Shown here: in pieces, positions 6,150-34,979 of the stretch | Layout of the letters: every line of letters starts with the position of its first letter | Numbering within the stretch: the first letter of the stretch is position 1 | DNA from: an uncultured Victivallales bacterium | Lineage (GTDB): Bacteria; Verrucomicrobiota; Lentisphaeria; Victivallales; UBA1829 | Direction: 5' to 3' | NCBI GenBank assembly: GCA_944391115.1 | Contig: CALXSJ010000005.1 | Location: forward strand, 124,001-188,000 | Length of the DNA: 64,000 nucleotides | Notes under the pieces: model-generated | What the model was told of the DNA's origin: nothing | The model's database searches: none | The model's input: the letters and a program-made list of their open reading frames with translations, nothing else | Position numbers and translations under genes: made by a program

Positions 6150-7829
6150 TCAGCGCAGATAGGCGAAATCGCATCCCTCGTCCGCCTGCAGCACATTGTC
6201 CATATAATGGCGGACGAATCCGCGTTCAAACTGTTCGCGGGGTTCGCACTTCGCCGTGCGCAGACGCTCCGCGATCTCCTCCGGCGAAAGTTCCACATTC
6301 AGAATCCCCTTCTCCACATCCATTTCGACGATGTCGCCGTCCCGGACGGCTCCGAGCGGGCCGCCGTCGCAGGCCTCCGGACAGACATGCAGGACAACGG
6401 TTCCGAACGCGCCGCCGCTCATGCGCGAATCCGTAATCCGGACATAGTCCCGGATGCCGCGCTTGTAAAGTTTCGGCGGGATCGGCATGTAGTTGCCGAA
6501 TTCCGGCATGCCGGGCGCGCCTTTCGGACCGTAGCCGCGCAGGATGATCGCCTTGTTCTCATCCATGTCGGATTCCGGGTCAAGCAGATATTTCTCCGCG
6601 GCGGCGAGCGTGTCGAAGACGCGCGCCTCGCCGCGGAATTTCAGGATCGAGGCGGCGGAACGCTTGATGACAGCGCCGCGCGGCGCAAGATTGCCGTGCA
6701 GCACCGCAATGCCGCCGTTGGGCGCAAGCGGCTTCTCCAGCGAAGCGATCACATCCGGACGCCACGGCTTCTGCACATTCTTCAGATTTTCCTTCAACGT
6801 CTTCCCTGTGACGGTCATCACATCGCCGTCCAGAAGCGTTTCCAGTTCTTTCATCAATGCCGGAACGCCGCCCGCCTGATGGAACTCGATTCCCACCGTT
6901 CCCTTTCCGGAGGGTTTCACATCGACCAGAAGTTTCGTGCGGTCGCTGATCTCCTGGAACAGCGACAGGGGAAGCGTGATTCCGGCGCGGCGCGCAATCG
7001 CGGTCAGGTGGATAATCAGGTTCGTGGAACCGCCGGAAGCCATCAGGACTGTGATGCAGTTCCGCAGCGCGGCTTCGGTAAGAATGTCCTTCGGCTTGAT
7101 ATCGCGTTCGATCAGCGTCATGATCTGGCGGCCGCTTTCTTCGGCATAGCGCATTTTCTCCGCGGAAACGGCAAGTGCGCTGGCGCTGCCGGGGAGACTC
7201 AGGCCGAGCGATTCGGTCGCGCACTGCATGCTGTTCGCCGTGCCCATGATCGGACATGCGCCGATGGAACCGTAGAGACAGCCTTCGACGCCCTTGAGTT
7301 CCTCCGTGCTGATTTCGCCGGCAAGATGTTTTGTCCAGAGTTTGAAACTGTCCGTGCCGCATGCGAGGGATTCGCCCTTGTAATTGCCGGGGAGCATCGG
7401 GCCGCCGGGAAGGAAAATCATCGGCTTGTTCGCGGAGACCGCAGCCATCAGCTGAGCGGGAACGTTCTTGTCGCATGATCCGAGGAGAATCACGCCGTCG
7501 AAGGGATGGCGTGCGATCAGCTCCTCGGTCGTCATGGAGAGCAGATTGCGATAGATCAGGCTGGAAATGTCGAAAAACACCTCGCAGATTGACATGGTGT
7601 TGACTTCCAGCGGGAACCCGCCCGCCGCCCATACGCCGCGCTTGACCGCGTCCGCCATCTGCCGGAAATTGTAATGTCCCGGATTGGTTTCCGCCCAGGT
7701 GTTGATGATTCCCACGATCGGACGTTCCAGATCTGCGTCCGTGTAGCCCATGCTTTTGATGAGCGCACGACGGAGCAGACATTGCCGTGTCCCCGGCTTC
7801 AGCCAAGTTTTTGAGTTTGAGTTCCGCAT
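6150..7829 (-). CDS. IlvD/Edd family dehydratase (sugar-acid dehydratase-like)
   Basis: 559-aa member of the dihydroxy-acid/6-phosphogluconate dehydratase family, full length, with an AGAGGAGA site before the ATG at 7829. Two of the three iron-sulphur cysteines are visible: Cys119 in LLGSCDKN and Cys192 in GACPIMGTANSM. The first cluster position, normally NPC in the N-terminal motif, is Gly51 (ETNPGHYN). In family members such as L-arabinonate dehydratase that cysteine ligates a [2Fe-2S] cluster. Its neighbours (aldolase, glycosidase, dehydrogenase, LacI-sensor regulator) point to dehydration of an aldonic acid to a 2-keto-3-deoxy acid rather than to branched-chain amino acid synthesis. First gene of the minus-strand catabolic run; its leader holds the hairpin-string repeat. 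Confidence 0.85.
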   Translation of the reverse strand: MRNSNSKTWLKPGTRQCLLRRALIKSMGYTDADLERPIVGIINTWAETNPGHYNFRQMADAVKRGVWAAGGFPLEVNTMSICEVFFDISSLIYRNLLSMTTEELIARHPFDGVILLGSCDKNVPAQLMAAVSANKPMIFLPGGPMLPGNYKGESLACGTDSFKLWTKHLAGEISTEELKGVEGCLYGSIGACPIMGTANSMQCATESLGLSLPGSASALAVSAEKMRYAEESGRQIMTLIERDIKPKDILTEAALRNCITVLMASGGSTNLIIHLTAIARRAGITLPLSLFQEISDRTKLLVDVKPSGKGTVGIEFHQAGGVPALMKELETLLDGDVMTVTGKTLKENLKNVQKPWRPDVIASLEKPLAPNGGIAVLHGNLAPRGAVIKRSAASILKFRGEARVFDTLAAAEKYLLDPESDMDENKAIILRGYGPKGAPGMPEFGNYMPIPPKLYKRGIRDYVRITDSRMSGGAFGTVVLHVCPEACDGGPLGAVRDGDIVEMDVEKGILNVELSPEEIAERLRTAKCEPREQFERGFVRHYMDNVLQADEGCDFAYLR

Positions 7830-7880
7830 TTTTTCTCCTCTGATAAAATAAAAAACAGTATCAGTCGCTTCGCAATTTTT

Positions 7881-8292
7881 TTACGGAAAAATGCATCAGC
7901 ATTTTTCGCGGGGTCAAGGGCCTTCCGGCCCTTGGCGTGATCCAGCGGCGAATCGCTGATCGTGCGAAGCACGAAATCCCCCGCCCGGAGCGGTTCAAAC
8001 CGCTCAGTGACGAGAACTTTTCCGCTGGAAAAGTTCGAGAGCTCCGGGCATCCCTGTATCATTTTTCGTACCGGACTTTCTTTCAATATATTTTTAATAG
8101 CGAGAGCTCCGGGCATTTTCCCGAGGCTGCACACTGTACCGGCGGCTCTCGAAGCTCCGCTTCTCGTCCTTTAGCGGTTGGAACCGCCGCCGGAGGAGAT
8201 TTCGCCTCCGGCGACCAGCTTACGCAGCTGGACCGCGGCAGGACTGAGAGTCCTGCACGAATCATAATTTGCAAAGCAAATTATTTTTTTTA
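7881..8292. repeat. Hairpin-string unit 1
   Basis: Stems read directly: 7886-7907 (9 bp, GAAAAATGC/GCATTTTTC); 7915-7934 (8 bp, CAAGGGCC/GGCCCTTG); 7943-7958 (CAGCG/CGCTG); 7960-7974 (6 bp, GAA loop); 7988-8005 (8 bp, GAGCGGTT/AACCGCTC); 8014-8036 (10 bp, GAACTTTTCC/GGAAAAGTTC); 8174-8187 (GCGGTT/AACCGC); 8188-8213 (9 bp, CGCCGGAGG/CCTCCGGCG); 8215-8231 (CCAGCT/AGCTGG); 8238-8256 (8 bp, GCAGGACT/AGTCCTGC); 8265-8283 (8 bp, TAATTTGC/GCAAATTA). An internal 16-base direct repeat beginning CGAGAGCTCC occurs at 8036 and 8101. About 137 bases between 8037 and 8173 hold no clear stem. Confidence 0.85.
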
Positions 8293-8704
8293 TTACGGAA
8301 AAATGCGTCAGCATTTTTCGCGGGGTCAAGGGCCTTCCGGCCCTTGGCGTGATCCAGCGGCGAATCGCTGGTCGTGCGAAGCACGAAATCCCCCGCCCGG
8401 AGCGGTTCAAACCGCTCAGTGACGAGAACTTTTCCGCTGGAAAAGTTCGAGAGCTCCGGGCGTCCCTGTATCATTTTTCTTTTCGGACTTTCTTTCAATA
8501 TATTTTTACCAGCGAGAGCTCCGGGCATTTTCCCGAGGTTGCACACTGTACCGGCGGCTCTCGAAGCTTCGCTTCTCGTCCTTTAGCGGTTGGAACCGCC
8601 GCCGGAGGAGATTTCGCCTCCGGCGACCAGCTTGCGCAGCTGGACCGCGGCAGGACTGAGAGTCCTGCACGAATCATAATTTGCAGAGCAAATTATTTCT
8701 TTCA
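8293..8704. repeat. Hairpin-string unit 2
   Basis: Second tandem copy with the same order of stems as unit 1. Differences I see between copies fall in loops or linkers: ATCA/GTCA in the first loop, TACGC/TGCGC in the CCAGCT hairpin, AAA/AGA in the last hairpin, and several changes in the stem-free stretch. The arms themselves read the same. After the last hairpin it runs into the 23-bp end sequence that unit 1 lacks on its right side, suggesting a duplication that lost part of one junction. Confidence 0.8.
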
Positions 8705-8721
8705 GTTGCTTCGCAATTTTC

Positions 8722-9759
8722 TTATTCCGGGGTCACAACAATTAATCGCGAAGCCAATTTTTTCCGTATGAATCCGAAATGCGGATTCTCAATCTGCCGG
8801 ATCAGCATCGCCGCGGCACACTCCCCGAGTTCCGCCATCGGAGGCTCCACAGTGAGCAGTTCATGCGGCAGGAATTTCGTCAGCGGCGCATGGTCGAATC
8901 CAGAAAGCCTGACGCCGCTCACGTCAAGGCCCATTTTCCGGATTTGGCGAAGGAATTCCCCCGCACAGGCGTCATTCAGGCAGCAGACAGCATCAGGACG
9001 CATCTCCGGATCACGGAAATGCTCAAAAAAACTTGCCCGGTCCTCCTGTGAACTTTCCCGTCCGCAGACCAGCCCGCGCCGGACTTTCAGACGGCATCTC
9101 CGGAGTCCCTCACGGAACCCCTGTTCACGTTCGACGGCGGCAAGCGGATTCACCGGCCCTCCGCCATACAAAGCAAAACGGCGGCAGCCCTCCGCATAAA
9201 AACGCTGCACAATCCCGATGATCCCGTCGGCATTTTCAAAAGTAAGAAGATTGCCATCCAGTTCCTCCGGCAGACGAATCAGATACAGAACAGGAATGCC
9301 GCAATCCGCCGGCAGACGCGCGGCATCCGGATTCCGCATTCCCGGATCGGCGTAAATCACAAGCCCCGCAGGATTCCGCGCCAGCGCCGTTGCCAGAATC
9401 CGCGTCTGCGTATCCGCGTCGCCGCAAAGCGGAACGATCGAACAGAGATAATTGGATTCAGCGGCAACTGCGCTGAAACGTTTGATGCTTTCCGCGAAGA
9501 AAACGACATCATGGCAAAGAAAAATCAGTTCGCGCTGGATCACGCGCGCGCTTCCGCCGACAACATTGCCGACGCCATTGCGCTTCTCAATCAGATTCCG
9601 TTCCGCCAGATCCGCCAGAGCACGGCGCAGTGTCGGCTTGCTGACGCCGAAACGCTCGGCAAGCTCCTGTTCCGGAGGAAGAAGAGCTCCCCGCTTCATG
9701 GTGCTGAGCATTTTTTCCAGCATTCCGGTCAACGTCAGATAAATATTATTCCGCGCCAT
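8722..9759 (-). CDS. GntR-type HTH / LacI-type sensor transcriptional regulator
   Basis: 345-aa regulator; start at 9759 is chosen because GAGG lies 9 nt upstream and the winged helix begins within 10 residues, whereas an ATG 21 codons earlier would add a hydrophobic run. The N-terminal ~75 residues are a GntR wHTH (LLPPEQELAERFGVSKPTLRR). The rest is a periplasmic-binding-protein-like ligand domain as in LacI/AraR proteins, ending in the typical GFDHAPLTKFLPHELLTV stretch. AraR-like hybrids sense sugars. Transcribed toward the dehydratase cluster and separated from it by the hairpin-string locus, it is the obvious candidate to control that cluster. A 16-bp palindrome upstream may be its autoregulatory site. 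Confidence 0.85.
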   Translation of the reverse strand: MARNNIYLTLTGMLEKMLSTMKRGALLPPEQELAERFGVSKPTLRRALADLAERNLIEKRNGVGNVVGGSARVIQRELIFLCHDVVFFAESIKRFSAVAAESNYLCSIVPLCGDADTQTRILATALARNPAGLVIYADPGMRNPDAARLPADCGIPVLYLIRLPEELDGNLLTFENADGIIGIVQRFYAEGCRRFALYGGGPVNPLAAVEREQGFREGLRRCRLKVRRGLVCGRESSQEDRASFFEHFRDPEMRPDAVCCLNDACAGEFLRQIRKMGLDVSGVRLSGFDHAPLTKFLPHELLTVEPPMAELGECAAAMLIRQIENPHFGFIRKKLASRLIVVTPE

Positions 9760-9811
9760 CGCAAAAACCTCGTTTCCTGTTAAGATACTTCCAGAGAGAA
9801 GAAATGCAAAT

Positions 9812-9827
9812 AAAAAATGCATTTTTT
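9812..9827. promoter_or_regulatory. 16-bp palindrome, candidate operator of the GntR-LacI regulator
   Basis: AAAAAATGCATTTTTT is a perfect palindrome 53-68 bp upstream of the regulator start, within an AT-rich stretch that should contain its promoter. The first hairpin of the repeat locus, 57-78 bp upstream of the dehydratase start, begins AAAAATGCAT and has matching outer arms. Whether one regulator reads both is inference. Confidence 0.3.
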
Positions 9828-10081: not shown

Positions 10082-10190
10082 TCGCGGGGACTTCGCCTCC
10101 GGCGACCAGCTTGCGCCGCTGAACCGCGGCAGGATTCCCCGGATGGAAAGCGCAAAGCAATTTTCACGATGCAGAGCATCGCACCGTCAA
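10082..10190. repeat. Degenerate dispersed copy of the hairpin-string element
   Basis: Bases 10092-10133 closely match 8201-8242 of the tandem units (3' arm of the CCTCCGGCG stem, the CCAGCT hairpin now ending CGCTGA, and the CCGCGG core). The hairpin at 8238-8256 is lost after AGGA. It then carries an AAGCAATTTT stretch and a CGATGC-AGA-GCATCG hairpin also found in the copy at 34772-34896. It lies downstream of the GDPD gene on the minus strand. Confidence 0.65.
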
Positions 10191-33739: not shown

Positions 33740-34769
33740 AAGCGTCAACATCGCAAGCTGCTCGATGCTGAGCGCCCCCGGCACGGTCCGGGCGGAAATC
33801 CCGCTTCCGGAAAAGGCGGCCGGGCTTGTGGCGGAGGCGCGGCGCGCGGTATTCGAGATTCTGCGCGGGCGCTCGAAGCGCCTGATGGCGATCGTCGGCC
33901 CCTGCTCCATTCACAACCCGGACGCCGCGCTGGAATATGCCCGGCGCTTGAAAGCCCTGAGTGCGGAACTCGACGGAAAACTCTTCGTCATCATGCGGGT
34001 TTATTTTGAAAAGCCGCGCACGACTCTCGGCTGGAAGGGACTGCTCTACGATCCGGATCTGAACGGGGCTTACGACATCGAAAAAGGCATCGCGGCGGCC
34101 CGGAAACTGCTTGTGAAAATCGCGTCCCTCGGCTTGCCGGCGGCAACGGAAATGCTCGACCCCGTCATATCGGCATATCTGGAGGACACGATCACCTGGG
34201 CGGCAATCGGCGCCCGCACCACGGAGGCGCCGACGCACCGTCAGCTCGCCAGCGGCCTTCCGATGGCGGTCGGATTCAAGAATGCCACAGACGGCGGTTT
34301 TCAGACGGCTGTTGACGCGGTCGCCACGGCACGCAGTCCGCACAGTTTCATCGGCGTGCTGGAGAACGGCCATACGGGAATTTTCCGGACACGGGGAAAT
34401 CCGTTCTGCCATGTGGTGCTGCGCGGCGGAACCTCCGGACCGAATTATGACGCGGTCCGGGTCGCGGATCTCCGGGAACGCCTCCGGAACGCGCATCTGC
34501 CGGAACGGGTTGTCATTGACTGCAGTCATGCGAATTCAGGAAAGGACCCGAAGAAGCAGCGCATCGTTTTCCGCGACGTGCTCCGCCAGAAGCGCGACGG
34601 GGAAACGGCGATCGCCGGCGTGATGCTTGAAAGCTGTCTGCGCGAGGGAAACCAGAAACTGCGTCCCGGCGCGATCCCCTCCCCCGACATCTCCGTCACC
34701 GATCCGTGCATCGGCTGGGAGGAAACGGAAGAGCTCCTCCGGGAAGCCGCGGAAAAACTTGCGGAATAA
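33729..34769 (+). CDS. aroF: 3-deoxy-7-phosphoheptulonate (DAHP) synthase, AroF/G/H type
   Basis: 346-aa class I-alpha DAHP synthase, the first shikimate-pathway enzyme (PEP plus erythrose-4-phosphate). Signatures are IVGPCSIHNPDAALEYA (metal Cys and PEP site), RVYFEKPRTTLGWKG, the GARTTEAPTHRQLASGL loop, GFKNATDGG, LRGGTSGPNYD and DCSHANSGKDPKKQ. Cotranscription at the end of the trp operon suggests it is the Trp-responsive isoenzyme, drawing carbon toward chorismate when tryptophan is short. Which aromatic amino acid inhibits it allosterically cannot be read from sequence, so the symbol marks the family. Confidence 0.93.
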   Translation: MLCESVNIASCSMLSAPGTVRAEIPLPEKAAGLVAEARRAVFEILRGRSKRLMAIVGPCSIHNPDAALEYARRLKALSAELDGKLFVIMRVYFEKPRTTLGWKGLLYDPDLNGAYDIEKGIAAARKLLVKIASLGLPAATEMLDPVISAYLEDTITWAAIGARTTEAPTHRQLASGLPMAVGFKNATDGGFQTAVDAVATARSPHSFIGVLENGHTGIFRTRGNPFCHVVLRGGTSGPNYDAVRVADLRERLRNAHLPERVVIDCSHANSGKDPKKQRIVFRDVLRQKRDGETAIAGVMLESCLREGNQKLRPGAIPSPDISVTDPCIGWEETEELLREAAEKLAE

Positions 34770-34771
34770 AT

Positions 34772-34896
34772 TACCGCGATGCAAGCATGCGCGGTATTGG
34801 GGATTTCGCCTCCGGCGACCAGCTTACGCAGCTGGACCGCGGCAGGACTGAGAGTCCTGCACGAAGCAATTTTTGGCGATGCAGAGCATCGCGGTA
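34772..34896. repeat. Dispersed hairpin-string element with 11-bp terminal inverted repeats
   Basis: 125-bp element between convergent aroF and ricT. TACCGCGATGC (34772-34782) is the exact inverse of GCATCGCGGTA (34886-34896). Inside it has the same core as the tandem units: TTTCGCCTCCGGCGA, the CCAGCT-TACGC-AGCTGG hairpin, CCGCGG and GCAGGACT-GAG-AGTCCTGC. Each end also folds locally, on the right as GCGATGC-AGA-GCATCGC. No coding potential. It resembles a non-autonomous mobile or REP-like element. The remaining 83 bases to the ricT stop hold nothing clear. Confidence 0.75.
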
Positions 34897-34979
34897 TCAA
34901 CCTAAATTTTTTTGAAATGAACTCCCGCGCCGCGGGGCCGGCAATCCGGGACATGGAGCATTCCGCAGGATATCCGCAG

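Follow-up and report, generated by a model that had tools for sequence, protein, structure and literature searches.

The insertion sequences of the IS200/IS605 family, as represented by IS608, carry a hairpin near each end and insert next to a short specific site, leaving the target unduplicated. One end of the element resembles the target site, a guide lies 5' of each hairpin, and the cleavage sites of IS608 are selected by pairing with these guides (PMC5934647). A second well-described group, the REP, BIME and REPIN elements, comprises high-copy intergenic palindromes that occur as inverted pairs and tandem arrays and vary between related genomes (PMC8266576, PMC6006769). Other relevant precedents are the CGTC-tagged palindromic repeats, which are abundant in bacteria without a dedicated transposase (PMC3733652), and the repetitive hairpin-forming elements of mitochondria, which are described as dispersed, intergenic and the result of repeated invasions (PMC2800124).

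In this study, we analysed a hairpin array in a stretch of 64 kb from an uncultured Victivallales bacterium, hereafter the window. Our verdict is that the array is mobile, hairpin-built non-coding DNA, which appears to work like an IS200/IS605 element and looks like an oversized BIME. A striking hairpin array is thus explained as mobile DNA instead of a riboregulator.

Results

A tandem hairpin array between a regulator and a dehydratase gene

A first-pass annotation of the sequence had placed tandem 412-bp units at 7861-8724, between a regulator and a dehydratase gene. Both the interval and the period hold: TRF gives a period of 412 with 2.0 copies at 7876-8702, indel-free and with 96% matches, and flanking repeats account for the borders. 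The identity of the two neighbours is confirmed by their domain matches. The features are as follows.

6150-7829, minus strand: IlvD/Edd family dehydratase gene (PF00920, 5e-109; PF24877, 6e-57), a neighbour outside the element
7861-7883, plus strand: left border piece, repeated at 8702-8724 (91% alike)
7876-8287, no strand assigned: 412-nt unit, copy 1 (TRF and repeat search)
8288-8699, no strand assigned: 412-nt unit, copy 2 (TRF and repeat search)
8702-8724, plus strand: right border piece, its final three bases being the stop codon of the regulator
8722-9822, minus strand: GntR/Peripla_BP_3 regulator (PF13377, 4e-20; PF00392, 9e-13), a neighbour outside the element, whose true start probably lies downstream of the start of this open reading frame

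The two copies of the unit are about 96-97% alike. Because the differences between them are scattered, and because the tandem arrangement recurs at another locus of the same genome and in a related species, the pair is not an assembly duplicate. Each unit holds 12 perfect non-overlapping hairpins (stems of 5-10, loops of 2-8). Stems reach 6 or more in 10 of them, whereas 300 dinucleotide shuffles gave 0.81 such hairpins on average and never more than 3; for stems of at least 8 the count is 7 per unit against 0.08. This hairpin density is by far the highest within the window, and the folding-energy z-scores of the array range from -7.4 to -9.7 on either strand.

The unit is a mosaic of two modules

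When copies were compared, the hairpins grouped into modules. The 412-nt unit is a mosaic of a three-armed module of ~63 nt, M, present in both orientations, and a module P, present twice in inverted arrangement. As a whole, it forms a large imperfect inverted repeat, in which 91 of the 112 aligned bases of the left half are identical to the reverse complement of the right half (inverted-repeat score of 81, the highest among 200 shuffles being 43). In its sense orientation, M reads GGGG-ATTTCG[arm1]CGA-CCAGC[arm2]GCTGG-ACCGCG-[arm3]-CACGAA or -ACCCC and is followed by a terminal AT-rich hairpin. The modules within the array, and one outside it, are located as follows.

7886-7984, minus strand: module M of copy 1, antisense, from its hairpins (covariance-model match at 7913-7977, minus, 78.7 bits)
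7886-7907, 7915-7934, 7943-7958 and 7960-7974, minus strand: terminal hairpin, arm3, arm2 and arm1 of this antisense M
7980-8050, plus strand: module P of copy 1, from sequence reading and hairpins, aligning with the inverted right half
Within this P, plus strand: closing stem GCCCGGAG/CTCCGGGC around the hairpins 7988-8005 and 8014-8036
8051-8125, no strand assigned: AT-richer spacer of copy 1, read from the sequence
8126-8187, minus strand: inverted module P of copy 1, from the half-versus-half alignment
8188-8287, plus strand: module M of copy 1, sense, from its hairpins (covariance-model match at 8199-8258, plus, 60.6 bits)
8188-8213, 8215-8231, 8238-8256 and 8264-8284, plus strand: arm1 hairpin, arm2, arm3 and terminal hairpin of this sense M
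8325-8389, minus strand: module M of copy 2, antisense (covariance-model match, 82.8 bits)
8611-8670, plus strand: module M of copy 2, sense (covariance-model match, 60.2 bits)
10090-10167, plus strand: degenerate single module M (covariance-model match, 30.7 bits)

The stems of M co-vary. The covariance model of the module, R1, contains 19 pairs, 16 of which have changes on both sides among the 141 instances in the loci studied. Double-change cells number 150, against 53 +- 5.7 in shuffles, and the covariation score of 0.221 compares with 0.048 or less when the structure is slid along. Fitting the alignment to the structure favours covariation, but the excess over both controls is large. After refolding, G-U pairs make up 2.2% of the stem pairs in the sense direction and 5.3% in the antisense direction, from which we make no claim about selection for one strand or for RNA versus DNA. 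In the spacer of both copies, a promoter-like match (TTGAAA, 17 nt, AATGAT) lies on the minus strand, at 8086-8058 and 8498-8470, directed toward the dehydratase gene.

Copies are dispersed, intergenic and variable between genomes

The window belongs to a genome of 3.66 Mb, G000, which was compared with the other members of a set of four from one genus (G000-G003) and with G012, G019 and G024 from a sister genus; all the genomes compared are drafts, from which multi-copy elements are easily lost. The first-pass annotation would have been refuted by a unit unique to this contig, missing from relatives or created by assembly, none of which applies, and it had called for BLASTN and covariance searches. 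These searches returned many intergenic copies of patchy presence, as for a mobile element, and copies are abundant in related genomes. BLASTN of the array against G000 yielded 97 matches, including many shorter or rearranged copies and a good number at contig ends. Among them are a second tandem array (C5:90767-91626, 94%) and about a dozen near-identical 70-bp pieces that belong to a solo form, S, described below. Relatives gave dozens of array matches, the same genus and one other genus of the family being rich in them. R1 matches G000 and G003 at least 130 times each, G001 120 times and genomes of the sister genus 42-68 times; in most other genera of the family the R1 search gave no match. 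Within the class, 45 of 198 genomes contain R1; in the phylum sample the figure is 32 of 388, one of them outside the class. The public records that match are, by contig name, mostly Victivallales/Lentisphaeria MAGs. One contig labelled as a Eubacteriales MAG terminates in module M sequence (2340-2402 of the locus), reflecting either misbinning or transfer, and a match of the core pattern in Devosia, lying within coding sequence, looks like chance and was discarded.

The modules are intergenic in 107 of 115 cases in the loci read, though 85% of the sequence was called coding. Divergent spacers are avoided: they account for 3 of the 37 module clusters with both neighbours, versus 23 of 95 spacers in general. 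These positional counts rest on gene calls from our own hexamer model, at loci chosen for holding copies. Clusters of modules often start 30-40 nt past a stop codon.

These distributions bear on the proposal that the array serves the dehydratase operon as a structured leader RNA, an option raised in the first pass, or as a cis-regulatory region. The array does fill the spacer upstream of the dehydratase gene, its fold is strong on both strands, and in G003, too, a related unit stands between the regulator and ilvD, on a contig that ends inside the array. However, units and modules occur at more than 30 unrelated loci of G000 and in both orientations, and no Rfam 15 family matches anywhere in the window at gathering thresholds. 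Moreover, G019 and G012 keep the regulator and the dehydratase gene with spacers of 66 and 83 bp, respectively, and without the unit, so that the constant position before ilvD expected of a leader fails, which largely refutes this proposal; we regard it as very improbable. The simplest reading of the G003 locus is that the unit inserted at ilvD before the split of G000 and G003. No empty allele was resolved for the 412-nt unit itself, the sister-genus spacers being too diverged to give exact ends.

The repeats also differ in number and arrangement between species. At an orthologous site (G001:C11 versus G000:C5:87500-95000), G001 has three units and G000 two. Elsewhere (G001:C24 versus G000:C15), a gene between two inverted units is flipped between the species, so that the repeats probably mediate inversions.

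A solo element with precise empty sites

The solo form, S, is ~150 bp long and contains a single module M. Its ends are inverted (TACCGCGATGC/GCATCGCGGTA), and each has a hairpin close by. In 56 copies, the subterminal hairpins are ACCGCGATGCAAGCATGCGCGGT on the left and GCGATGCAGAGCATCGC on the right; on the complementary strand the ends read TTYATT^CAAAAAAATTTAGGTTXATACC...GCGGTAATTTATT^. One copy lies in the window.

34765-34914, plus strand: solo S element, absent at the orthologous site of G001
34765-34770, plus strand: element-borne site AATAAA, part of the S element
34771-34914, plus strand: 144-nt core of S, with M inside at 34803-34862 (60.6 bits)
34798, plus strand: left guide base, GGTAT[T]GGGG, beside the left hairpin and complementary to the element-borne AAT[A]AA
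34898, plus strand: right guide base, GGTAT[C]AACC, beside the right hairpin and complementary to the target G of AATGAA
34915-34921, plus strand: right flank AAATGAA, the target sequence (empty allele of G001 here: CGATGAAC)

In G001, the flanks of this S element lie 2 nt apart in the alignment. Empty alleles were also found in G001 and G003 for the insertions at G000:C10 and at G000:C9, in G000 for that at G001:C36, and in G000 and G001 for that at G003:C196. In all five cases the element went in next to a short specific site and the target was not duplicated; usable empty alleles exist for only some S copies, many flanks having no clear ortholog. Judged by these comparisons of occupied and empty alleles, S elements have clearly jumped. 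The first-pass suggestion of a REP-like mobile element is supported by the empty sites of the solo form and by the hundreds of copies scattered between the genes of related genomes.

The insertion in the window (34765-34770) changed how the DAHP-synthase gene upstream of it terminates: the stop codon is now the TAA of the element, versus TGA in G001. Stop-codon targeting was considered as a rule and rejected, as a long open frame stops at the TAA or TGA of the element in only about 9 of 50 S copies. At four loci, tandem copies of S are joined through a single common AATRAA; a circle junction would produce this, and so would repeated insertion into one site.

The preference for positions behind genes, the avoidance of divergent promoter regions and the T-rich sequence that follows the terminal hairpins might suggest terminators or stabilisers of mRNA 3' ends that evolved in place and never moved. 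This is barely credible given the precise empty sites, which show insertion, and the same positions would be expected if harmful insertions were purged. Furthermore, no intrinsic terminator (a GC-rich hairpin directly followed by a T run) was found in 7780-8800, fewer than the 1.9 expected from shuffles. A role at terminators or mRNA ends is possible as a secondary function.

Junctions and guide-target co-variation

At junction 1, the occupied allele CCCACGTGA/AATAAATTACC...TTTTTTTG/AATAAACG contrasts with the empty allele CCCACGTGAAATAAACG; at junction 2, CTCAAGA/AATAAATTACC...TTTTTTTGA/AATGAACC contrasts with CTCAAGAAATGAACC. The G003 junction reads AATGAATTACC on the left and AATCATAAG on the right, its empty alleles being AAATCATAAG. 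The cleavage points are ambiguous within AAT. Two of the three S subfamilies have unlike hexamers on the left and right, and it is the right one alone that equals the empty allele; at G003:C196, for example, the left AATGA belongs to the element and the right AATCA is the target. As the right hexamer is the target and the left one is borne by the element, the flanks are not a target duplication. On the opposite strand, the arrangement is that of IS200/IS605 (PMC5934647): the left flank holds the target site, a similar site closes the element and hairpins stand near both ends. Another early idea, that the array is a substrate for a single-stranded-DNA process, is supported by these IS200/IS605-type junctions of the solo form.

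The base X of GGTATXAACC tracks the base Y of the target AATYAA, T occurring with A, C with G and G with C. X and Y are complementary at 44 of 53 insertion sites (nine do not pair), whereas permutation within genomes gives a mean of 29.4 and a maximum of 39 in 20,000 trials. Ten G000 copies have a 144-nt core that is identical save for X; six of them carry C and sit at AAATGAA, and four carry T and sit at AATAAA. A corresponding pairing at the other end was predicted before looking, and it mostly held: the base beside the hairpin and that of the element's own site are T-A in 24 cases, C-G in 18, C-A in 8, T-G in 1 and C-T in 1. The presumed pairing comprises three bases (TXA with TYA), one of them variable, and copies within an S subfamily are not independent, so that the rule rests on few independent lineages. 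The case for guide-target pairing made by this co-variation is therefore strong but not conclusive, owing to the single variable pair, a hairpin spacing larger than in IS608 and the kinship within subfamilies.

A different account would make S a MITE-like or other element that depends on a DDE transposase, a tyrosine or serine recombinase or some other enzyme, and would put the guide pairing down to a coincidence of subfamily descent. It draws on the inverted ends TACCGCGATGC/GCATCGCGGTA, the AATRAA-like sequence on both flanks, the tandem junctions with one common AATRAA, the largely clonal nature of the guide/target classes, and the fact that a Y1 gene was not found in these draft genomes. 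Against it speak the unlike hexamers in two of three subfamilies with only the right one matching the empty allele, hence no true duplication, the change of a single base that goes with a change of target in otherwise identical G000 copies, and the correct prediction of the pairing rule at the other end. We consider this account distinctly unlikely.

The search for a mobilising enzyme

Among the draft genomes searched for the Y1 transposase (PF01797), G000 and G001 contain decayed IS200 remnants and G003 and G019 none; no intact Y1 gene was found in these four. The TnpA remnants lie in G000:C35 (locus 1900-2510) and G001:C3 (locus 1820-2420). G012 has an intact IS200, whose ends differ from those of S.

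The RAYT (TnpA-REP) transposase would be expected if the repeats were strict REP/BIME elements, and their intergenic location, palindromic structure, high copy number, inverted pairs and BIME-like tandem arrays would fit (PMC8266576). However, the RAYT model NF047646 has no match in the four draft genomes of the genus or in G019 and G024, and G012 yields only a weak match at its IS200 TnpA (31.9 bits, below the cut-off of 80). Several genomes without module M, by contrast, give good RAYT matches. By reading, no GTAG tag stands at the hairpin foot of S or M, and at 150-412 nt the elements far exceed REPs of 20-50 nt. Movement of strict REP/BIME elements by RAYT is thus quite improbable. Neither Y1 nor RAYT is a satisfactory candidate, as the distribution of the genes does not track that of the repeats; the enzyme may have been lost from the assemblies, be extinct or be of another kind.

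Discussion

We explain the locus as a tandem pair of composite non-coding interspersed repeats, related to an element, S, whose transposition most likely proceeds through single-stranded DNA, as in IS200/IS605. We hold this explanation to be probable, and the single-strand mechanism and the class of the enzyme are what we infer. Each unit pairs two inverted sets of hairpin modules (M-P, spacer, P'-M') and in its architecture resembles a large BIME or REPIN. In the proposed mechanism, read on the complement of the strand numbered here, S would present a hairpin near each end and be cut beside a short TTYATT site on the left flank and a like site that ends the element, the site being chosen by pairing of Y with the base X (in GTTXAT and CCXAT) located 5' of the nearby hairpin. 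Insertion would take place without target duplication by an enzyme acting in trans. Surviving insertions lie mostly behind genes, some exactly at a stop codon with the element giving a new TAA, and arrays would grow later by tandem duplication. The 412-nt units at ilvD may have spread as S does, as the shared module and architecture suggest.

More speculatively, S and its relatives might be a self-standing guide-programmed lineage without Y1 or RAYT, mobilised by an enzyme so far not connected with elements of this kind, a lineage which diversifies its landing sites by one-base changes of the guide and builds intergenic multi-arm hairpin arrays. We think this unlikely, and the best reading is a new variety of non-autonomous single-strand mobile element.

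The repeats form a large family in a little-studied phylum, and our literature search, which covered papers outside subscription, found no earlier description of it. They also amount to a natural experiment on DNA-guided target choice, since in ten otherwise identical copies of G000 one base corresponds to one of two targets.

Despite their resemblance to BIMEs, the repeats most probably do not belong to the REP-RAYT group: they measure 150-412 nt instead of being palindromes of 20-50 nt, GTAG (or GT[AG]G) is not seen by reading, and RAYT has no match in the drafts of the genus. The CGTC-tagged repeats, compared by description, are short single palindromes with another tag (PMC3733652), and the mitochondrial hairpin elements, likewise compared by description, reside in other hosts (PMC2800124). 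We know of no guide rule for the mitochondrial hairpin-forming elements.

Of the features that define IS200/IS605 elements, S appears from its sequence to have three, namely subterminal hairpins, insertion without target duplication and guide pairing, and mobilisation by a Y1 enzyme may be a fourth. In contrast to that family, S has no transposase gene, and no intact Y1 was found in several of its host genomes. Its interior is a three-armed co-varying module that is also found outside S, in inverted composites and tandem arrays. Between the guide X and the hairpin foot the distance is 5-6 nt, which exceeds that in IS608, and the natural variation of the guides in S agrees with what engineered guides do in IS608.
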